Shown: positions 20,301-63,368 of the stretch, piece by piece
Layout: every line of letters begins with the position of its first letter
How positions within the stretch are numbered: the first letter of the stretch is position 1
Origin: an uncultured Christensenella sp.
GTDB taxonomy: Bacteria; Bacillota; Clostridia; Christensenellales; UBA1242
Length of the DNA stretch: 64,000 nt
Direction: 5' to 3'
Assembly (NCBI GenBank): GCA_949300385.1
Contig: CASGDZ010000002.1
Location: forward strand, 199,093 to 263,092
Notes under the pieces: model-generated
What the model saw: only the letters and a program-made list of their open reading frames with translations
The model's database searches: none
Told to the model about the DNA's origin: nothing
Translations under genes and position numbers: made by a program

Positions 20301-20386
20301 TGGTGCCGGTGGTCGGGGTCGAACCGACATGATGTTGCCATCGCAAGATTTTGAGTCTTGTGCGTCTGCCATTTCGCCACACCGGC
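20301..20386 (-). tRNA. tRNA-Leu (anticodon CAA)
   Basis: Read on the minus strand, the acceptor stem GCCGGTG pairs with CACCGGC, followed by A and an encoded CCA (20303-20301). The anticodon stem-loop is CAAGA-CTCAAAA-TCTTG, giving anticodon CAA (codon UUG). A long variable arm (class II) and the T-loop GGTTCGACCCC are present. Length 86 bases. Confidence 0.93.
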
Positions 20387-24766: not shown

Positions 24767-25039
24767 GTGAATTGTACATGCATATTTGAGACAAATCAAT
24801 TGCTGGCATAACCTTATAATACTCCATTAAAGCAACCTCATAGCACATATCGTATCCTTCTTAATGCTGCTACCTTCCGGTCCTGACATGGTTCGTAGGG
24901 CAATATTGTATAAGACCTTAATTTCAACATACTACAAAACTACTCAACACAACCGAGTTTGACCCGCATTATGCCGTTCAGTCCCACTGTAGTGGATTGT
25001 GGGTACAGGGCACCACTAGCTCCCCACCTAGTACAATTC
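24767..25039 (-). ncRNA. Signal recognition particle RNA, large type with Alu domain
   Basis: On the minus strand the apical S-domain sequence GAACCATGTCAGGACCGGAAG is followed by GTAGCAGCATTAAG, the hallmark of SRP RNA. Upstream, CTAGGTGGGGAGCTAGTGG and TGCCCTGTACCCACAATCC match the Alu-domain region of Bacillus-type scRNA. The ends GAATTGTAC and GTACAATTC pair to close the molecule, giving about 273 bases. The RNA joins Ffh to target nascent membrane proteins. A consensus promoter and a terminator bracket it. Confidence 0.93.
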
Positions 25040-53685: not shown

Positions 53686-56600
53686 ATGAAAAGATTTTTA
53701 TTATATATATGTACATATATTTTAGTAACAATTGCCTCTGCTGTAGGTACTATTACTATAAATAATGTTATGGGAGCAACTGTCCAACAGGTTACAGCCG
53801 AGCAAGAAAGCACGGCGGTTAAATTAATGAATGGTATAATGGATATAGGTAGTGCAGAAGTAGAAATTGACTTGAACTTGACAGATAAAGCGATTTCTCT
53901 GCAAAGTGCTAGCACTAGAAATACAAGCATTGTTATTAATTTTAAAGGTAATATTAATATAGCAAGTTTAGACAATATAAATTTAAATGGAGATTTGAAA
54001 TTAAAAATAAATGGTGAAGAAATTGCGCTATTTATAGTATACTACAATGATACAATTTACATTTCGAATGAAACAATTAATCTCAAAGTTGAAACGTCAA
54101 ATCTGTCTAAAATTTTTGAACTTATTCCGTTATTAGGTGTTGACTTTAATTTGGGATTAGATCTAAGTACGTTCAGTATTGATAGTATCTTGCAATCTTT
54201 AGAGAGCAATAAAGAAGAAAGAGTCGATGATAATACTATTAAAATACCTTTAGAACTTTTTGAAAATCTCACTATTAACATATTCTGTGATAATCAATAT
54301 AATATCACTAAGATAAGCGGAGATAATCTTTGGATAGGTAATTATTTAGTTGATTTAAATTTAGATTTAGTAAAAAATCAAGAAATTGAGATAGTTGACC
54401 CAGAAGAAGATTTAACCTCAGATTATGTAGATGTCACTAATACATTAAATATAGTTGATTCTATTAAAGAAATAATAAATAATAAAAAATTACATTTAGA
54501 TGTTAGCATTGATATACCAGCTTTGCACGATATTTCAATTGACGGAGAAATTGATATTGATTTTAACAATGAGTTGTCAGTCGCAACTAGGTTGCAACTA
54601 TTATGCAATAATAATACGTACGAATTAAATTTTGTATTTAAAGATTCAAGTATATATATTGATTTCAATGATATAAAATTTATGGTAGATAAAAATGCGA
54701 TAAATGATGTTATTGAAATTATTTACGAAAAATTAAATTTAGAATCATCAACTAAAAATATATTAATTAATTTGTTGCCTGTATTCTCAAATCTAGACTT
54801 GTCTAAACTTTTAGAAGGTGATTTTAGTGCCCTTAATATTGATAATCTACTAGAGTTTTCAAATGGAGAAGATGAGTCAATTAACATTACTATAAAAAAA
54901 GATTTCTTTGGACTATCTAAAGATTTAAACATTAATATTATTTTAGATGATGAAGATAAATTTTCAGGTCTTAAAGTTAGCGGACTTGAACTTCTTGGGA
55001 ACGAACTTTCTTTATATGTTGGTTATTCGAACAATGTAAAAATACCTACAATAAATGAAAATGATTACTTAAACTTTAACAAACTACCTAATCTTTTAAA
55101 TGCTTTAATTAATTCGGCGCAAAAGATAGTAAAAGATAAGAAAATTTCTTTAGATATTGATAGTCAATTAATAGTAAATGATAATTTAGTAAATGTTAGT
55201 GGAAATGTTAATATAGATTTTTATGACAAAGAAGATATAAAAATATATTCAACTCTTTTACTTGAGTTGTATAACAAAAAAATAGACATTAAGTTTAGTG
55301 TAGTTAATGATACAATATATTTAGATATTGACAATTTAAAATTTAAATCAAAGTTTAGTGAAATAAAGGAATTGATTGAAATTATATCACAATCATTCGA
55401 TATAGATTCCGCAAATTTAATTGGTGATTTTACAACAGGTATTATTTCGAATGCTAAAAATCTTGTACAAGTCTTAAATTTTGATCTCTCTAAATTAAAT
55501 GAAATTGTAAAAGAAATAAATATCAATGATACAAATGTTTTACTAATTTTAAATAAAGATGCAACTCAAACTTCTAGTGATATTAGCCTTATATTAAATT
55601 ATAATGAAGAAATTGAGAGTTTAGATATACAAGCAGACTTAGTTGATGATATTAAATTAGACTTAAGTATAAAGACTGAACAAGCTTTTGTAAAAAATGA
55701 AATTATTGAAAGTGAATATGCGAGTCTAAAGTATGCTAAAAATTTAATCACCGCTTCATTAAATAGTGTAAATAATATATTATCAAATAATAAATTATCA
55801 CTTAATGTTAACGCTCAAGTTGAATTAAATAATCAATTAATAAATTTAAACGGAATATTAGCAATAGACAATAGTTGCACATATTTAAAGATTAATTTGC
55901 CTATAGATAACAAAAAAATAGTTTGTGAATTATATTTAGTTAATAATATAATTTATGCCAACATAGACGGATTAAAATTTCATACAACAATAAATGATAT
56001 CAAAGAAATTTTAAAAATATTAAAGATAGAGGATATCAATTTATCAGACACAATTGAATCTTTATTCCCTAAATACAATATTAATGAAATCAAAGAATTT
56101 AATTTTGAAAGTTTAAATCTTGGAATTATCAAAAATATAAATATCTTAGAGAATAGTACCGAGATAGAACTATCAAAAGATTATATAGACTTAATTTCGG
56201 ATATTCAATTAACTTTAAATTATGATAATCTAATAACTTCACTTGAGATATTTAACATTAATCTATCTAATGTGAAGGCAAATTTAACTTTAGAATTAGA
56301 TTATGATTATGAAATAAACCAAATAGATATTGATGAATATGGTAATTTAACCAATATTAATAAAAGTGTAAACGCGCTATTTAATACAATAAACGATATC
56401 TTGAATGAAAAGGAAATTGCATTCAACTTAGACATTCATACAATAGTAGGGAATAATGAATACAAATTAAGCGGAGATTTGTATATTGATTATTCTAATA
56501 TTAGTGATATAAAAGATATAGATTTTACTAATATTATTGCGTCAGCAAATTTAAAGGTTTCTATTAATGGAGTAGAAATAAATTTAATATTTAATCTAGA

Positions 56601-59600
56601 AAATGGTTATGCTTACATAAACTTTAACGAATTAAAGTTAAAGATAGGCGTTAGCAGTATTGAAGACCTTATAACAAATATTTCTCTATTATTCAAAACA
56701 GAGTATCAGTTCGATATACAAAATATTTTGTTAAGTTATTTTAAAGATTCAATCTTAAATGATATTCTCAACAAAAACTATGATGATTTAAGTTTGAGTC
56801 TAATTAAATCAATTAATTCAACTGAGAATGAATTAGTTATAACTTTTGACAAATCTCTTTTAGGAACGAATGAAGACATAACTATTTCATTAACTAATTC
56901 ACACGATAAACTTGATACAATAAAGATACAAAATTTTGGTTTGGAAAATATATCGTTTGACAAATTATCAATACAAATATTAACTAATTATAATTATATT
57001 AATGTAGTAGATAGCGACTATTTTGAAATTAGCGGAATTAATCAATTAATAAAATCATTTGCAAATACTTATAACGGAATAAATTCGAGCAAACAAATAG
57101 CTTTAAAAATAGAGCAATTAAATTTATACACAAATGATATAACCTATCAACTATCTGGAGTGTTCTATCTAGATTATTCAAAAGCATTGACAGTCAATAA
57201 TTTAGGCGAGATATTTGTAGATATTGATAAGCTAATTATATACACTAAATTGTCGATTGTTGAATACAATAAATCACTTGATTCTAATAGTTATACTCAT
57301 AATATAGAATTGCTATACGATACTGAAAATTTATATTTAACATACAATAATTTGAGTATTTGCGTAGATACATACACAATAGAAAGTATATTTGAATTAA
57401 TTACTAAATTGACCAATAATGAGAACTTAGACACAATAAATAATGTAAAAATTAACTTTAATGAAGTCATTCAAAACATGATAAGCTCATTAAATATAGA
57501 AGAAAATTCTTCTAACATCTTATCATCTTTCGATGCTAATATCATCAAATATTTAGATATATCAAATAACAAGTTAGATTTAATATTAGACAAAAATTTG
57601 CTAGATACCTCAAATGATATTTCTTTAGAAATTAATTATAGTGATAAGTTAGACAATATTTCTTTGCAAGAGTTTTGTTTGAATAATTTATCTTTAGATA
57701 TATCCTTAGATCTACTTACAAATTTTGAAGTACCAAATGTAGATATAACTAAATATTCAAATTTGGATAATATAGATGAATTCATAGATTCAGCATTTAG
57801 CACTATTAAAAAGATTGAGAGCAACAAAAACTTATCTTTCAATATTAGTTCAACAATCACGAATACGACTTACTCATATGATGAAAAAGACATAATAATT
57901 AAGTCTGTTTCCAACAAAATAAATATTTTAGATAGTTCGTTAATATCAATCAATTGGGCAAGCGCAATCAAAGACAATCAAACATTTAACATTAATGCAA
58001 TATCAATCTATGCGAAGTTAGATATTGGAATAGATACCATAATTAAGTATTACAACAATGGTATAGTAGATAATTCAAAAACAAATATTTCTAGCACTAC
58101 ACACAGTATAGAAGTTAGATTTATTGATAATACAATTTATCTAGCATATAACAATATGAAAATTAAGTTGGCAGGTGAAGGGCTAGACCTTGCAATTAAT
58201 TCTATTTGTGAAATAATGCAAATAGACATCGGAACAAATTCGTTAGACAATCTAATCAACCTTATCCTTAATTTTAATAATAACGAATCATTTACGAACG
58301 ACTTAAAAATCGAAATGATAAAATCAATTAATCTAACGGACACTATTCTAAGTGCAACAATAGATTTGTCCGAAGTAGATATGTTTGATGGACTAACTGA
58401 ATTAGATTTTGATATTGTGTATCGCAAAGAAACTATTGAGAGTATAAACATAAACAATTTAATTATTGGAAATTTCAATATTAATTCAGTAAATATTAAT
58501 CTACGAGATTATGAAATAGTTGAAGATTTAACTGAAGAAGAAAAATCTAATTATATGGATATTTCTTCGGTTGGAAATTTAATTGAAGCAGTTAAAAATA
58601 CTATTAAATTTACCGATTTCCATATAACAGGCAATGTTGATTTAAAATTAAATGTTATAGGAATAGATGTAGAATTTAATGTACCAGTTGATGCTTATCT
58701 AAAAGTGATAGAAGGAAAAATTGAAGGCAAAATTATACTTGGACCTGTACCAGTTATAGGTGGAGTCAATGATGATGCACCTTACAAGTTTGGAAATACT
58801 GTTAGTGGAGTAAATCCGGGCAAAGATAGAATTCTTACAGTATACCTAAAAAATAATATGGCATATTTCTATAGAACAGAGATAATACCTGTTTTTGCAA
58901 GTTCAGATAGAGTGTATGAAAAGAAACTTAAAGTGCATATGGATACATTGCTTTTAGACCCATTATATTATTTCTTAGATTATGGATTAGGGTTAAGCGA
59001 TTCAATAATGCAAGCGATATATGATTCGTTAAATATCGAAAGAGAAAAACCTATTGATTATAGCAATATTTTGAAAGGATTTGACTCTACAGGCAATATG
59101 TATACTATGACTTTAAACTTATATGAACTAACCGCTAATCCACAATTAGATACTATGAGTCTTGGAGTTAAAGTCATTGATTATCAAAATCAACAAAGTG
59201 GACAAGATGTACCTATTATTGGCGGATTAACTTTAAATATGTTTATGCCTATCGCGGATAATGTAGAAATAACATTGAATAGCGAAAATTTGACGTTAGT
59301 TAATATAGGGGAAAGCGTAGATTTATCAAGTCTATACGAATTTACCTCTAATTATTCGTACAAAGAAGGAGCAGAGTGGGACGCATATGATGGTTCGTGG
59401 AATTTAAGTAGTCAGCGAAAATTCAGCCTTATGTTTGAAACTAACTGCGATGAAAAGTTAGATTCTATTCAAGGGATTGCTGGAAGTTCGTTCATATTGC
59501 CTAGTTTAAATAACTATGTTGTCGATGACAACATAGTTAGAAGCAGTTATACTTTTGTGGGTTGGTACACAACAAGCACTTTTGATGTCGGTAGCGAATA

Positions 59601-60648
59601 CAAAGAAAATATTTTCCCTAGAAGCGACACAGTTTTATACGCAAAATGGATAGTTGATACTAAAAATTATATTACTATTTCTTTCGAGACAAATGGCGGA
59701 GCGCCGATTGATAGTATAAAAGTACTTGAAGGACAAGAATTGAATTTACCTACATATTTTGATGTTATTACTGTCGAAGAAAATGGAATTATTTACATAA
59801 AGCAATTTGATTCGTGGTATATGGATAAAGATTTAACTATTAAAGCATGCAATGTAGCACCAGACGAAGATATAATTCTTTACGCTAAATGGAGCGTAAT
59901 TTCGACAGAAGAATCTTATACATTGAATATTTATGACAATGGGCAAAAAATCTTATCTAAGCGATTATGTGAAAACGATTTAATAACATTAAACGGCTCT
60001 AGCAAATTTAACGAAACTACAAAATACTTTATTGATAGTTCGTATACAACAGAATTCACTAGTATGATTATGCCTAATCATGATTTGAATTTGTATGTTA
60101 GAAACTTATATAATTTCACACTTTCTTCTCAGTATGGCGAAATTGTAAATGTTAATACGAATTATTATCAATCTGAAATTATATCATTACCACAACAATA
60201 TAGTTATTATTATGATGACGGCACTCAAACAGAAAGAATGATATACACTTTCGAAGGATATTATAGCGACAATATAAAAATTGAAAATATTAATAATTTT
60301 GTTATGCCGAATAATAATGTGGAAATAGTTGCAAAATGGGCTGTCACTATTAAAGAATATTACACTGTCACTTTTAGTAAAGATACAAGTGTTGTAAGTG
60401 CATTTAAAGATAGTATAGTTTTCCCAATTGACAGCATTAAAGTATTGGAAGGCGAAACTTTAAATTTAAGTCAATATAATCCTACTTGGGTGTATAAAAC
60501 TGGGACTATATTTACAACTTGGTGGCACTATGAATTTGAAGGTTGGACAACTGAATTAGGTAGCGAAAATATAACTCAAATTATTGTAACAGGTGATACT
60601 ACAATATATGCTAATTGGAACGGAGTAGTAAAAACCGGCAAAGGATAA
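53686..60648 (+). CDS. Giant secreted repeat protein with InlB-type C-terminal repeats, 2320 aa
   Basis: An N-terminal signal peptide (KRFLLYICTYILVTIASAVG, cleavage probably near residue 30) leads into about eight divergent tandem units of 215-245 residues. Each unit has an amphipathic helix ending K-K/E-[IL]-[SA]-[LF], several strands (for example FKDSSIYIDFNDIKF, VVNDTIYLDIDNLKF, LVNNIIYANIDGLKF) and a helical stretch before the next copy. Residues about 1900-2320 hold several InlB-type (Listeria-Bacteroides) repeats: FETNGGAPIDSIKVLEGQ, FVGWYTTS, TVLYAKW. There is no LPxTG or S-layer anchor, so the protein may be released or held by its partner. It is rich in Asn, Ile and Asp. A ggga site precedes ATG. 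Confidence 0.8.
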   Translation: MKRFLLYICTYILVTIASAVGTITINNVMGATVQQVTAEQESTAVKLMNGIMDIGSAEVEIDLNLTDKAISLQSASTRNTSIVINFKGNINIASLDNINLNGDLKLKINGEEIALFIVYYNDTIYISNETINLKVETSNLSKIFELIPLLGVDFNLGLDLSTFSIDSILQSLESNKEERVDDNTIKIPLELFENLTINIFCDNQYNITKISGDNLWIGNYLVDLNLDLVKNQEIEIVDPEEDLTSDYVDVTNTLNIVDSIKEIINNKKLHLDVSIDIPALHDISIDGEIDIDFNNELSVATRLQLLCNNNTYELNFVFKDSSIYIDFNDIKFMVDKNAINDVIEIIYEKLNLESSTKNILINLLPVFSNLDLSKLLEGDFSALNIDNLLEFSNGEDESINITIKKDFFGLSKDLNINIILDDEDKFSGLKVSGLELLGNELSLYVGYSNNVKIPTINENDYLNFNKLPNLLNALINSAQKIVKDKKISLDIDSQLIVNDNLVNVSGNVNIDFYDKEDIKIYSTLLLELYNKKIDIKFSVVNDTIYLDIDNLKFKSKFSEIKELIEIISQSFDIDSANLIGDFTTGIISNAKNLVQVLNFDLSKLNEIVKEININDTNVLLILNKDATQTSSDISLILNYNEEIESLDIQADLVDDIKLDLSIKTEQAFVKNEIIESEYASLKYAKNLITASLNSVNNILSNNKLSLNVNAQVELNNQLINLNGILAIDNSCTYLKINLPIDNKKIVCELYLVNNIIYANIDGLKFHTTINDIKEILKILKIEDINLSDTIESLFPKYNINEIKEFNFESLNLGIIKNINILENSTEIELSKDYIDLISDIQLTLNYDNLITSLEIFNINLSNVKANLTLELDYDYEINQIDIDEYGNLTNINKSVNALFNTINDILNEKEIAFNLDIHTIVGNNEYKLSGDLYIDYSNISDIKDIDFTNIIASANLKVSINGVEINLIFNLENGYAYINFNELKLKIGVSSIEDLITNISLLFKTEYQFDIQNILLSYFKDSILNDILNKNYDDLSLSLIKSINSTENELVITFDKSLLGTNEDITISLTNSHDKLDTIKIQNFGLENISFDKLSIQILTNYNYINVVDSDYFEISGINQLIKSFANTYNGINSSKQIALKIEQLNLYTNDITYQLSGVFYLDYSKALTVNNLGEIFVDIDKLIIYTKLSIVEYNKSLDSNSYTHNIELLYDTENLYLTYNNLSICVDTYTIESIFELITKLTNNENLDTINNVKINFNEVIQNMISSLNIEENSSNILSSFDANIIKYLDISNNKLDLILDKNLLDTSNDISLEINYSDKLDNISLQEFCLNNLSLDISLDLLTNFEVPNVDITKYSNLDNIDEFIDSAFSTIKKIESNKNLSFNISSTITNTTYSYDEKDIIIKSVSNKINILDSSLISINWASAIKDNQTFNINAISIYAKLDIGIDTIIKYYNNGIVDNSKTNISSTTHSIEVRFIDNTIYLAYNNMKIKLAGEGLDLAINSICEIMQIDIGTNSLDNLINLILNFNNNESFTNDLKIEMIKSINLTDTILSATIDLSEVDMFDGLTELDFDIVYRKETIESININNLIIGNFNINSVNINLRDYEIVEDLTEEEKSNYMDISSVGNLIEAVKNTIKFTDFHITGNVDLKLNVIGIDVEFNVPVDAYLKVIEGKIEGKIILGPVPVIGGVNDDAPYKFGNTVSGVNPGKDRILTVYLKNNMAYFYRTEIIPVFASSDRVYEKKLKVHMDTLLLDPLYYFLDYGLGLSDSIMQAIYDSLNIEREKPIDYSNILKGFDSTGNMYTMTLNLYELTANPQLDTMSLGVKVIDYQNQQSGQDVPIIGGLTLNMFMPIADNVEITLNSENLTLVNIGESVDLSSLYEFTSNYSYKEGAEWDAYDGSWNLSSQRKFSLMFETNCDEKLDSIQGIAGSSFILPSLNNYVVDDNIVRSSYTFVGWYTTSTFDVGSEYKENIFPRSDTVLYAKWIVDTKNYITISFETNGGAPIDSIKVLEGQELNLPTYFDVITVEENGIIYIKQFDSWYMDKDLTIKACNVAPDEDIILYAKWSVISTEESYTLNIYDNGQKILSKRLCENDLITLNGSSKFNETTKYFIDSSYTTEFTSMIMPNHDLNLYVRNLYNFTLSSQYGEIVNVNTNYYQSEIISLPQQYSYYYDDGTQTERMIYTFEGYYSDNIKIENINNFVMPNNNVEIVAKWAVTIKEYYTVTFSKDTSVVSAFKDSIVFPIDSIKVLEGETLNLSQYNPTWVYKTGTIFTTWWHYEFEGWTTELGSENITQIIVTGDTTIYANWNGVVKTGKG

Positions 60649-60991: not shown

Positions 60992-62227
60992 TTATAAACA
61001 TTGTATCTTATTTTTTACTTTTACAAATGTCTTTTTCCCTTTTTTAACAATTTGTTCAGATTTTAGTTCTAATATTTCATTTACATCTGTTTTCTTTTCA
61101 TTGTCAATTATTATACCGCCCTGTTCAATTAATCTTCGTGCTTCTGATTTTGATTTAATAATGCTAAGTTTTGATAAAAAATCTACAATATTTATGTGTT
61201 GAACACAAGATAATTCTTCAGTTGGCATTTCTGTAGCATTACCATTTGCAAATAACTTCGTGGCTATTTCTTGAGCTTTGGTTGCTTCATCTGTTCCGTG
61301 AACAAGTTCTGTAACTTTAAAGGCCATTAATTTTTTAGCTTTAACAATATCGTCTTTGCACATATTTTCAATTTCTTTAATCGGTAAATCTGTAAAAAAT
61401 CTTAACAATCTTTCTACATCAGCATCCAAGCAGTTTACAAAATGCTGGAAGAATTCAAAAGCTGAAGTTTTTGACCTACTGACCCATAATGTACCTTTTT
61501 CCGTTTTGCCCATTTTTATTCCATCAGCATTTGTCAAAAGTGGGCAACATAACCCCATCATAAGTGGGCGAGAGGTACCATTTTTAAAATTCATCTTTCG
61601 AGATAGTTCAACACCTGCACAAATATTTCCCCATTGGTCTGATCCGCCAATTTGTAAAATACAATTAAATTTATCGTTTAAATGCACAAAATCAAAAGCT
61701 TGCATAAGCATATAACCCATTTCCATAAATGTTAATCCACCTCTTGCAAGACGATTTTTATATAAATCTTTTGTTAACATTTCATTTATATTAAAATGAA
61801 CGCCAACTTCACGCATAAAATCGATGTAACCCATAGGTTTTAACCAATCAGCATTATCTACAATTATTGCTGGATTATCTCCGGTTGTTTTAATAAATCT
61901 GTTTAAAATACTTTTTATTTCTTCTGCATTTTTCGAAACTTCTTCTTTTGAAAGCATTTTTCGCATATCACTTTTGTTTGTCGGGTCTCCTATTAGAGCA
62001 GTAGCACCACCAACAAGAACAATACATTTGTGTCCGCAATCTTGCAAAATTCTTGCCATACGCAAACCGAAAAAATGTCCGATATGCAAGTCGTCGGCTG
62101 TAGGGTCAATTCCAATGTAAAATGTTATAGGTTTTTCATTTAAAATTTTTTTAGTTTCATCTCTGTGAGTTGTTTGAAAAACAAACCCTCTTTCTTCTAA
62201 TAATTCGAATCCATTTTTATTAAACAT
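60992..62227 (-). CDS. tyrS: Tyrosyl-tRNA synthetase
   Basis: Class I synthetase of about 411 aa. FYIGIDPTADDLHIGHFFGL contains the HIGH-type motif, GGATALIGDPTNKSDMRK and QIGGSDQWGNICAGVEL are TyrRS signatures, and IKMGKTEKGTLWV is the KMSKS-type loop (here KMGKT, as in TyrRS type 2-like enzymes). A C-terminal S4 RNA-binding domain (IIKSKSEARRLIEQGGIIIDN) completes it. It charges tRNA-Tyr. The start ATG 62227 has aaaggag upstream; the earlier in-frame ATG 62254 does not. An attenuator with a tyrosine leader peptide precedes it. Confidence 0.95.
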   Translation of the reverse strand: MFNKNGFELLEERGFVFQTTHRDETKKILNEKPITFYIGIDPTADDLHIGHFFGLRMARILQDCGHKCIVLVGGATALIGDPTNKSDMRKMLSKEEVSKNAEEIKSILNRFIKTTGDNPAIIVDNADWLKPMGYIDFMREVGVHFNINEMLTKDLYKNRLARGGLTFMEMGYMLMQAFDFVHLNDKFNCILQIGGSDQWGNICAGVELSRKMNFKNGTSRPLMMGLCCPLLTNADGIKMGKTEKGTLWVSRSKTSAFEFFQHFVNCLDADVERLLRFFTDLPIKEIENMCKDDIVKAKKLMAFKVTELVHGTDEATKAQEIATKLFANGNATEMPTEELSCVQHINIVDFLSKLSIIKSKSEARRLIEQGGIIIDNEKKTDVNEILELKSEQIVKKGKKTFVKVKNKIQCL

Positions 62228-62274
62228 AATATTCTCCTTTAATAATTTTATCATAATTTTATTTCAATGCAATA

Positions 62275-62316
62275 TTATTTAACGCCCATATGGGCGTATG
62301 CTTTTCTAAAAAACAT
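62275..62316 (-). CDS. Small leader ORF between attenuator and tyrS (13 aa)
   Basis: ATG 62316 follows an ideal AAAGGAGAAAGT ribosome site and reads MFFRKAYAHMGVK then TAA. Its coding sequence contains the 16-base palindrome ACGCCCATATGGGCGT (62282-62297), a hairpin that translation would melt. It ends 47 bases before tyrS. It could couple translation to tyrS or be a further regulatory peptide. Confidence 0.5.
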   Translation of the reverse strand: MFFRKAYAHMGVK

Positions 62317-62332: not shown

Positions 62333-62372
62333 AAAAAATCTGCCAATAACAAAACTGATAATTTTGGCAGAT
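62333..62372 (-). terminator. Second terminator in the tyrS leader (T2)
   Basis: On the minus strand ATCTGCCAA pairs with TTGGCAGAT (nine base pairs) and is followed by TTTTTT. Its left arm (CTGCCA) can alternatively pair with TGGCAG in the right arm of T1. Confidence 0.8.
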
Positions 62373-62381
62373 ATTCTATTT

Positions 62382-62420
62382 AAAAGAAAAACTGCCACAC
62401 AGCTAATTGCTATATGACAG
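62382..62420 (-). terminator. Attenuator terminator of tyrS (T1, segments 3:4)
   Basis: On the minus strand CTGTCATATAGC (62420-62409) pairs with GCTGTGTGGCAG (62403-62392) over 12 continuous base pairs including G-U, with a five-base loop and a T-rich tract (TTTTTCTTTT). Confidence 0.85.
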
Positions 62421-62463
62421 ATGTTTATCTTTATTTCGCACAAAAACTTCTACATATAGCAAT
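62406..62463 (-). promoter_or_regulatory. Antiterminator of the tyrS attenuator (segments 2:3)
   Basis: ATTGCTATATG (62463-62453), immediately after the leader-peptide stop codon, is perfectly complementary over 11 bases to CATATAGCAAT (62416-62406), which is part of the left arm and loop of T1. Segment 2 can instead pair with the Tyr codons: CTACAT (62473-62468) with ATGTAG (62455-62450). Confidence 0.8.
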
Positions 62464-62511
62464 CTAAATGTAGTAGTAATAATATGAAGTCAATGCGAAA
62501 ATGTTTATCAT
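62464..62511 (-). CDS. Tyrosine attenuation leader peptide (15 aa)
   Basis: ATG 62511 with AAGGAG ten bases upstream reads MINIFALTSYYYYYI and stops at TAG 62466-62464. Five consecutive Tyr codons (TAT TAT TAC TAC TAC, 62484-62470) sit directly before the competing hairpins. This is the layout of amino-acid leader peptides such as those of trp, his and phe operons: a ribosome stalled for lack of Tyr-tRNA would free segment 2 to form the antiterminator. It lies directly upstream of tyrS, the gene expected to respond to that signal. Confidence 0.85.
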   Translation of the reverse strand: MINIFALTSYYYYYI

Positions 62512-62532
62512 TTCTAACTCCTTATATTTTTT

Positions 62533-62560
62533 ATTATATCACAAGATTTTGAAAAAGCAA
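62533..62560 (-). promoter_or_regulatory. Promoter of the tyrS leader
   Basis: On the minus strand TTGCTT (62560-62555), 16 bases, extended TGATATAAT (TATAAT 62538-62533). Confidence 0.75.
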
Positions 62561-62858: not shown

Positions 62859-63368
62859 ATGAAAGATGTTTCAGTTATGATTGATGATTTTAAATTTAAT
62901 TTTAGAGTTGGTGCTCTAATTGAGAATAAAGGAAGATACTTACTTGAAAAAAATAAAAATGATGACTTTTACAATATGCCGGGCGGTCGTGTTCATGCCG
63001 GCGAAAACACACTTAATGCAATTAAAAGAGAACTAAAAGAAGAACTTGGACTTTATGTTGATAACCCAAAACTTATTAAAGTTTCAGAGCAATTTTTTGT
63101 TTTAGCAAACACAAAATATCATGAACTTAATTTTGTATATTATATTAAATTAAAAAATTCCAATCAACTCACAAAAAAAGATAACTTTATAAATTTAGAT
63201 AATCAAAACGAAACAATGGTATGGATAGACAAGAATTCTTTGAATAATTACAAAATTTTACCAGAATTTATATACACTTTAAAAGATGAAAAAAATATTT
63301 CTCACTTAATTTTTGATAAAATTAACAATGAAAGTTATGATTCAAGATACAATTATAAAATGTCATAA
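62859..63368 (+). CDS. NUDIX hydrolase, 169 aa
   Basis: The NUDIX box is complete: GRVHAGENTLNAIKRELKEEL fits G-x5-E-x7-R-E-[IVL]-x2-E-x-G. The preceding MPGG and N-terminal VGALIENKGRYLLEKN strand are typical. Enzymes of this fold hydrolyse nucleoside diphosphates linked to another group; the substrate cannot be predicted. A good aaaggag site precedes ATG. It has its own promoter and stands between divergent tyrS and a structured intergenic region. Confidence 0.88.
   Translation: MKDVSVMIDDFKFNFRVGALIENKGRYLLEKNKNDDFYNMPGGRVHAGENTLNAIKRELKEELGLYVDNPKLIKVSEQFFVLANTKYHELNFVYYIKLKNSNQLTKKDNFINLDNQNETMVWIDKNSLNNYKILPEFIYTLKDEKNISHLIFDKINNESYDSRYNYKMS

Follow-up and report, generated by a model that had tools for sequence, protein, structure and literature searches.

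A probable ribosome-mediated tyrosine attenuator in front of a second tyrS gene in a family of uncultured Clostridia, with codon-swapped relatives

The leader of a tyrosyl-tRNA synthetase gene (tyrS) in the 64,000-nucleotide stretch of uncultured Christensenella sp. DNA analyzed here (the window) is very probably a ribosome-mediated transcription attenuator that measures charged tRNATyr and controls tyrS. The support comes from the sequence, its conservation, the pairing of its segments, their covariation, and codon swaps in related leaders that match the controlled gene. At the sequence level, all the defining features of a ribosome-mediated attenuator that were tested are present. The mechanism so read belongs to a known class, but it occurs in an unexpected lineage, in front of unexpected genes, and with an extra element. 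In what appears to be a gut-type Clostridia host, leader-peptide control of synthetase genes is unexpected.

The leader region lies between a divergent NUDIX-type gene (62859-63368, plus strand) and tyrS on the minus strand. Judged by domain models, the gene behind the leader is an authentic tyrosyl-tRNA synthetase gene: its product, queried without the first Met, scores 394 bits against TIGR00234 (cut-off 113.8), and the domain search gave PF00579 and an S4 domain. This copy is the second tyrS of its genome. All 34 genomes of the genus gave a housekeeping-type tyrS match, in some cases partial, with 41-53% identity to the window tyrS, and 8 of the 34, the window's own genome included, have a copy of the window type at 71% identity or more; short remnants of the window type occur in genomes G007 and G025. 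At locus L077 (G025, contig C11), an intact-looking Tyr leader is followed by what seems to be a tyrS remnant. The leader-bearing gene is the sole tyrS match found in G102 and G163 (window type) and in G088, G109, G128, G145, and G157 (housekeeping-like), these genomes not all being complete. Elsewhere in the window we noted a 2320-aa repetitive, perhaps surface, protein (53686-60648, plus strand) convergent with tyrS, the bacterial large SRP RNA (24772-25036, minus strand), and a tRNALeu(caa) (20301-20386).

The mapped features are listed in Table 1. A preliminary description of this DNA had proposed a promoter, a ribosome site, and a 15-codon ORF with five Tyr codons, and all of these were found, on the minus strand. 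The -35 box of promoter P1 has only three of six consensus bases, and this weakness explains its absence from the promoter scan list; in the alignment of relatives, mostly TTGA- is seen at -35 together with a TATAAT-like -10, with L040 and L047 looking different. The short translatable leader ORF (ATG 62511, preceded by AAGGAG) is followed by segments in attenuator order, as had been described: helix 1:2 (CTACAT:ATGTAG) has 6 bp, helix 2:3 (ATTGCTATATG:CATATAGCAAT) 11 bp (12 counting a G-U), and helix 3:4 (CTGTCATATAGC:GCTGTGTGGCAG) 12 bp, followed by TTTTT. These three pairings are mutually exclusive, with weak equilibrium switching in some relatives, and segment 2 starts directly 3′ of the stop codon. 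Intrinsic terminators precede the gene, T1 (3:4) being found by the scan and T2 by alignment only. T1 was one of two terminator-like sites in the scan (0.1 expected in shuffles), the other being on the plus strand; T2 is missing from the scan because its loop exceeds the limit of 8. The second terminator of the preliminary description is nevertheless there, as the helix ATCTGCCAA:TTGGCAGAT followed by a T-run, and its left arm CTGCCA can pair with TGGCAG of segment 4 over 6 bp. The 179-nt leader has a folding energy of -49.2 kcal/mol (z -5.6; 0/200 shuffles as stable), and the minimum-energy fold of the isolated leader is the terminating state, with the basal helix and 1:2, then 3:4, then 5:6.

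Table 1. Mapped features of the tyrS leader region, in window coordinates and in the order of transcription.
Feature	Position	Strand	Basis
Promoter P1: -35 TTGCTT (62560-62555), 16-nt spacer, extended -10 TGA-TATAAT (62538-62533)	62533-62560	minus	sequence
SD AAGGAG of the leader ORF	62518-62523	minus	sequence, relatives' alignment
Leader ORF MINIFALTSYYYYYI-stop, 15 codons, five consecutive Tyr codons	62464-62511	minus	ORF reading, conservation
Basal helix 5′ arm TTTCGCAT, within the ORF; partner 62441-62434	62493-62500	minus	minimum-energy fold, relatives
Segment 1, CTACAT, last Tyr codons	62468-62473	minus	folds, alignment
Segment 2, ATTGCTATATGTAG, immediately 3′ of the stop codon	62450-62463	minus	folds, alignment
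Basal helix 3′ arm GTGCGAAA	62434-62441	minus	minimum-energy fold, relatives
Segment 3, CTGTCATATAGCAAT, partner segment 2 or 4	62406-62420	minus	folds, alignment, permutation test
Segment 4, GCTGTGTGGCAG plus T-run; terminator T1 with segment 3	62387-62403	minus	alignment, terminator scan
Segment 5, ATCTGCCAA, T2 left arm; its CTGCCA can pair with segment 4	62364-62372	minus	alignment, folds
Segment 6, TTGGCAGAT plus T-run; terminator T2	62333-62346	minus	sequence, alignment
Mini-ORF2 MFFRKAYAHMGVK-stop, with SD AAGGAG at 62327-62322	62275-62316	minus	sequence; Tyr in frame in 17/19 hairpin loci
Tyr codon TAC (62298-62296) at the base of the hairpin ACGCCC-ATAT-GGGCGT (62297-62282)	62282-62298	minus	sequence, relatives
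SD AAGGAG of tyrS	62234-62239	minus	sequence
tyrS, second copy, 411 aa from ATG 62227	60992-62227	minus	TIGR00234, PF00579

We infer that stalling, termination, and readthrough in the cell, as well as the 4:5 relay, would proceed as follows. With ample Tyr-tRNATyr, the ribosome would reach the stop codon and mask segment 2, so that 3:4 would form and transcription would stop at T1, with T2 (5:6) as a second stop. With scarce Tyr-tRNATyr, the ribosome would stall in the Tyr codons and mask segment 1, so that 2:3 would form before segment 4 exists; the free segment 4 could then capture the left arm of T2 (4:5), both terminators would fail, and tyrS would be transcribed. A leader that is not translated would form the basal helix and 1:2, leading to termination at T1/T2.

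In the stall model, the ribosome was assumed to mask all RNA up to 13 nt past the first nucleotide of the codon in its A site. For the window RNA extending to the T2 left arm, each stall at Tyr codons 1 to 4 gave 2:3 together with 4:5, and the stop-codon position gave 3:4. When the full T2 was included, the minimum-energy folds retained 2:3 and 4:5 for stalls at Tyr codons 2 and 3; at the stop position and at Tyr codons 1 and 4, segment 3 was paired with segment 6 around 4:5, instead of T1 and T2 being formed. Within this model, the 3:6 fold speaks against a purely equilibrium picture, and the order of synthesis must decide; T1 is made, and able to act, before T2 exists. Across 20 sequences folded to the end of T1, a ribosome placed on the stop codon left P(3:4) at 0.8 or higher in all 20. 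When the ribosome was stalled on the first, second, or third Tyr/Trp codon instead, P(3:4) dropped by at least 0.2 in 16 and to below 0.5 in 11. In the equilibrium model, 3:4 remained above 0.5 at every tested stall position in 9/20 sequences, and L039 and L042 barely responded (a fall of about 0.1 or less); where 3:4 persists in this way, the model therefore needs 2:3 to form first. For loci L087 and L091 of genus g32, equilibrium folding of the relay gave no terminator loss.

The preliminary description had called for a conserved Tyr-rich ORF and covarying helices in related genomes, and both were found. A single scan of GTDB genome contigs gave 28 tyrS loci, 21 of them at 70% identity or more and 20 of these with enough upstream DNA. 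Nineteen of these 20 testable close relatives have the leader ORF, which carries Tyr codons toward its end; this takes the observed leader beyond chance. Its core is SYYYYY in most of them, with the variants YYYCY (L039), YYGYY (L052), and YYWWTY (L054). No leader was found at the remaining locus, L053, where the terminators are gone as well and the ACGCCC-GGGCGT hairpin is kept with no ATG ahead of it. Loci L055-L057 (46-56% identity) have no Tyr-run leader, just short ORFs with scattered Tyr codons, and no comparable leader was seen at the housekeeping tyrS of the genus in the 22 loci inspected (of 34); a seven-codon match, MVYYYDL, at -487 of the housekeeping tyrS in L032 was judged to be chance. 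L043 (contig end), L058 (partial match, gene start not located), and L059-L061 (29-30% identity) were left out of the conservation count.

Pairing was scored on a 19-sequence alignment (A1) that excludes L051, which is without T2; the near-copy L034 was excluded from alignment A2 and from the permutation test, and L035, L041, L048, L052, and L112 from alignment A3. On A1, 95.1% of the cells of the terminating structure are paired, with 7 double-change pairs (0/500 shuffles as high), and slid versions of the structure give 16-47%. For the antiterminated structure (2:3 and 4:5), 95.3% of cells are paired (26-47% when slid), with 2 double-change pairs (17/500 shuffles); it is poor in covariation because it is nearly invariant. 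Slid by -1, it has more double-change cells (5 versus 2) and a higher covariation score (0.080 versus 0.071), yet only 26% of its cells are paired. Arms also pair better within their own sequence than when exchanged between sequences, in a permutation test that ignores relatedness: among 20,000 arm swaps of 19 sequences, uncorrected for relatedness, the observed pairing was reached 0 times for the basal helix, 0 for 2:3, 356 for 3:4, and 64 for 4:5. With 15 more diverse sequences added, and again uncorrected, the counts were 0, 0, 200, and 179 of 20,000. Natural compensation can be seen at single loci. The basal stems of L051 and L054 are quite different and still pair, L052 has GCTGTATG:CATACAGC, and L042 carries CTACC and GGTAG in segments 3, 4, and 5, so that 4:5 follows the change from CTGCC to CTACC. 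The 4:5 pairing, which resembles a D:E pairing, is thus possible and conserved, being fully paired in all 19 A1 sequences; it is partly implied by the arms common to T1 and T2, and equilibrium folds of it are mixed.

We consider codon swapping to be the decisive and strongest line of sequence evidence for attenuation, as the swaps can be read as natural codon-replacement experiments. The run of cognate codons consists of five Tyr codons before tyrS, Trp codons before trpS, and Tyr plus Trp codons before tyrS-trpS. A covariance model of the leader (R1) matched 34/297 genomes of the family in 9/42 genera (E up to 0.01, a few doubtful matches included), and a model of the Tyr and Trp leaders (R2) matched 41/297 genomes in 12/42 genera (E up to 0.1, a few doubtful matches included). 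These tallies contain matches judged to be chance or doubtful in G039 (L096), G076 (L161), G102:C3 (L167), and G086 (L168), as well as doubtful opposite-strand matches in G226, G223, G163, G213, and G050. Neither model had a convincing match beyond the family: the scan of the order returned 4/396 genomes, all in the family, and that of the class 2/391, namely the window's own genome and G1001, which is without a visible leader. Within the family, a Tyr leader precedes a housekeeping-like tyrS in G248 and in all six tyrS loci recovered from eight genomes of genus g32. In the g32 loci L087 and L091, a T-run follows 5:6 only and none follows the 3:4 hairpin; control there would therefore depend on the 4:5 relay.

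For trpS, found at 61% identity or more in 16 genomes of the genus, the upstream DNA was sufficient in 13 (too short in L100, L104, and L114). The scaffold with Trp codons was found in six of the 13: G013 (NYWWNI), G016 (KYWHCI), G011 (KSWYCI), G017 (LNLWLDT), G018 (FWYWRNI), and G001 (SWCWRNI); in G011 and G016 it lies about 750 nt upstream of trpS. More divergent Trp scaffolds occur in two others, G031 (KSWQNWINHRYSM) and G010 (NIWSTRWR), and G008 and G007 have a Trp leader of different look. In G020, the tyrS stop codon is followed some 20 bases later, on the same strand, by trpS, and the leader of the operon encodes YYWWTY. No leader was found at the trpS of G002 or of the window's own genome, the last two of the 13. 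Upstream of trpS in G008, G007, G004, and G029 (L105, L113, L120, and L127), we observed a second, unrelated-looking Trp leader architecture, in which the ORF ends in CWRN, GWRI, GWRK, and WWRW, respectively, with hairpins and a T-run between it and trpS.

Weaker R2 matches extend to other amino acids. A Met-codon leader, FFMGMHTG (in a fuller reading FFMGMHTGYCV), with a terminator-like hairpin precedes metA in L166 (G050:C7); this gene scores 421 bits against PF04204, yet lies under the NCBIfam cut-offs. A His-codon leader (L162) precedes a radical-SAM-like gene, and Ile-rich or Phe/Tyr-rich leaders precede related proteins of about 620 aa (L163 in G142; L164 and L165 in G164), one of which has a faint ATP-grasp match, below cut-off. 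In L162 and L169 (G157:C122), the His leader is accompanied by a His mini-ORF2 before a 293-aa radical-SAM-like protein, with an ileS-like ORF further downstream. Leaders with 6, 8, and 7 Asn codons (VNNNNNNFN, INNNNNNNNA, and INNNNNNNSS; L174, L175, and L196) stand before aspS-type genes. These are leaders of their own, with hairpins and T-runs, and in two of them an LNLMGSF tail is conserved. Two of the genes are aspartate--tRNA(Asn) ligase by NF003483 (420 and 424 bits, cut-off 353), though under the TIGR00458 cut-off, and the third (L196) scores as a bacterial aspS. Finally, the leader MKNFERTILVAAAARNLVCNTVFLQ of L201 (G060:C8), with four Ala codons (VAAAARN) and a terminator-like hairpin, precedes an alaS that is partial and stays under the cut-offs (449 against 529). 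Several of the Trp, Ala, and Met leaders have no clear SD, and in L098, L093, L099, L103, and L108, as well as in L166 and L201, the leader ATG is preceded by a -10 box at a distance of only about 8-9 nt or slightly more; given this short distance and no evident SD, those leader transcripts may be leaderless.

The five consecutive Tyr codons are striking, and with SYYYYY preserved in most relatives one might suppose that the nascent poly-Tyr peptide, not a shortage of Tyr-tRNATyr, arrests the ribosome. We consider this very improbable: the core varies (YYGYY in L052, YYYCY in L039, YYWWTY in L054, YYYDYIF in L089), Trp, Asn, and Ala codons stand before trpS, aspS, and alaS, and what stays constant is a codon cognate to the controlled enzyme, not a peptide motif. 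The textbook regulator of synthetase genes in low-GC Gram-positive bacteria is the T-box, and the window's own genome has three matches to the T-box model, all below the Rfam cut-off, before thrS (TIGR00418), pheS (TIGR00468), and glyS (NF003211). That the tyrS leader is itself a T-box, or another metabolite-binding RNA, is nevertheless scarcely credible. The preliminary description had predicted no T-box match in this region, and none was obtained; no Rfam family reached threshold there (best, below threshold, NmsRb with 24.4 bits versus 52 and the trpB motif, RF04312, with 20 versus 59), and only two tRNAs did so in the scan of 26 related loci. The conserved bases are moreover mostly accounted for by the ORF and the helices.

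Another reading contests a single detail, the 4:5 relay, and leaves attenuation as such in place. T1 and T2 would be mere back-up terminators, and 4:5 a by-product of similar arms with no role of its own. T2 does resemble a partial repeat of T1 (shared CTGYCA and TGGCAG arms), L051 has T1 only, the stalled minimum-energy folds of L087 and L091 retain the 5:6 hairpin, and some window folds pair segment 3 with segment 6. Against this stand the complete pairing of 4:5 in A1, its following of the change in L042, and the permutation result (64/20,000). Without 4:5, furthermore, T2 would halt the transcription that had passed T1, and in L087 and L091, where 3:4 lacks a T-run, an 8-9 bp 4:5 helix can be read in the sequence. 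We therefore regard the back-up reading as unlikely.

Beyond attenuation by the Tyr leader, a second short ORF (mini-ORF2), whose Tyr codon touches a GC hairpin, lies between T2 and tyrS (Table 1). The preliminary description, supported in its reading of the leader, had overlooked this codon, along with the codon swaps and the status of tyrS as a second copy. The ACGCCC/GGGCGT hairpin is present in 19/20 leader-bearing loci, window included, and absent in L051; the exceptions to a TAY codon in frame with an SD-preceded ATG are L049 and L054. The pattern SD-ATG-GCCC-N4-GGGC has 39 matches in 34/297 genomes of the family, and the reversed pattern has one. We tallied 35 distinct matches in the studied loci, several of which were chosen because they match. 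Seventeen are short ORFs downstream of a leader, and the codon directly before GCCC fits in 15 of them (11 Tyr before tyrS, 3 Asn before aspS, and 1 His at a His-leader locus). The fit is loose in the other two: at trpS of G031 the in-frame TGG and the stem share one base, and at alaS of G060 the preceding codon is Phe, the stem's own GCC being an Ala codon. The other 18 comprise 3 short out-of-frame ORFs and 15 ORFs of 79 aa or more, most or all of which are ordinary protein starts, for instance what we take to be those of rpsC, a U32-peptidase-like protein, and an FAD-protein-like protein.

Several explanations of the hairpin were set aside. A widespread genomic repeat is ruled out by a single ACGCCC/GGGCGT match in the genome and one in the reversed control; a DNA operator is unlikely, the spacing of the arms varying while the stem adjusts (L042, L049, L052); and an antisense terminator, corresponding to the plus-strand site of the scan, would leave the codon match unexplained. 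An internal promoter just before tyrS is only suggestive (shuffle p of 0.025 or less in 7/20 loci; 0.12 in the window). From its sequence, mini-ORF2 looks like a second codon-matched sensor, and a ribosome waiting at its cognate codon would cover the GC hairpin. An effect on mRNA stability or processing is our guess, weakly held. We tentatively put forward, at somewhat less than even confidence, a family-wide and re-codable attenuation of synthetase and amino-acid genes that is joined by the mini-ORF2 sensor in a two-stage check on the same tRNA. One scaffold would have been recoded for Tyr, Trp, Tyr plus Trp, and probably Met, His, Ile, and Phe, with the Asn and Ala leaders as further ones, and the mini-ORF2 stage would come into play once readthrough has occurred, perhaps by affecting the stability or processing of the mRNA. 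If functional, mini-ORF2 would be a new kind of element.

In this small-genome family of Clostridia, tyrS, trpS, aspS, and alaS appear to be controlled through ribosome stalling. In the genome of the window, T-box-like leaders persist before thrS, pheS, and glyS, and it can be asked why and how the two controls are exchanged. In the extract of a 2005 comparative study (PMC1262725), T-boxes are given for most synthetase genes of Firmicutes and classical attenuation for none. His-leader attenuators are predicted for some Firmicutes his operons in the consulted portion of PMC9413887; they share the principle, but concern biosynthesis operons, not synthetase genes. PMC11109978 counts eight uORF candidates, and the word tyrosine is absent from its main text. 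The literature searched, open-licence papers only and hence no proof of absence, yielded no description of a Tyr leader before tyrS.

Two enteric systems invite comparison: the pheST attenuator, which responds to Phe, not Tyr, and belongs to another lineage, and the his attenuator, in which segments C and D can also pair. The pheST system exemplifies leader-peptide attenuation of an aminoacyl-tRNA synthetase operon (PMC1262725, in extract), the kind of control proposed here for tyrS. The preliminary description had placed such control mainly in enteric pheST, which holds for pheST itself, but leader attenuation is also predicted for trpS and leuS of Streptomyces (same extract), of the classical type and likewise on Gram-positive synthetase genes but in Actinobacteria and for Trp and Leu, and for cysS of Rhodobacterales. 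The latter motif, uORFC-8-2, has two cognate codons before a synthetase gene, but in Alphaproteobacteria and for Cys (PMC8632094, in extract). In the his attenuator of Salmonella and E. coli, E:F is the terminator, A:B forms when the leader is untranslated, and B:C and D:E form on stalling (PMC4046918, in extract). The tyrS leader has a similar short ORF with a cognate codon run and, in its possible pairings, the same six-segment logic, with 1:2, 3:4, and 5:6 set against 2:3 and 4:5. This likeness is one of logic, with no sequence relation claimed. Unlike the his attenuator, the tyrS leader would sense Tyr, its gene encodes a synthetase, and its host belongs to an uncultured Clostridia family; in most tyrS relatives, 3:4 is itself a terminator, hence there are two.
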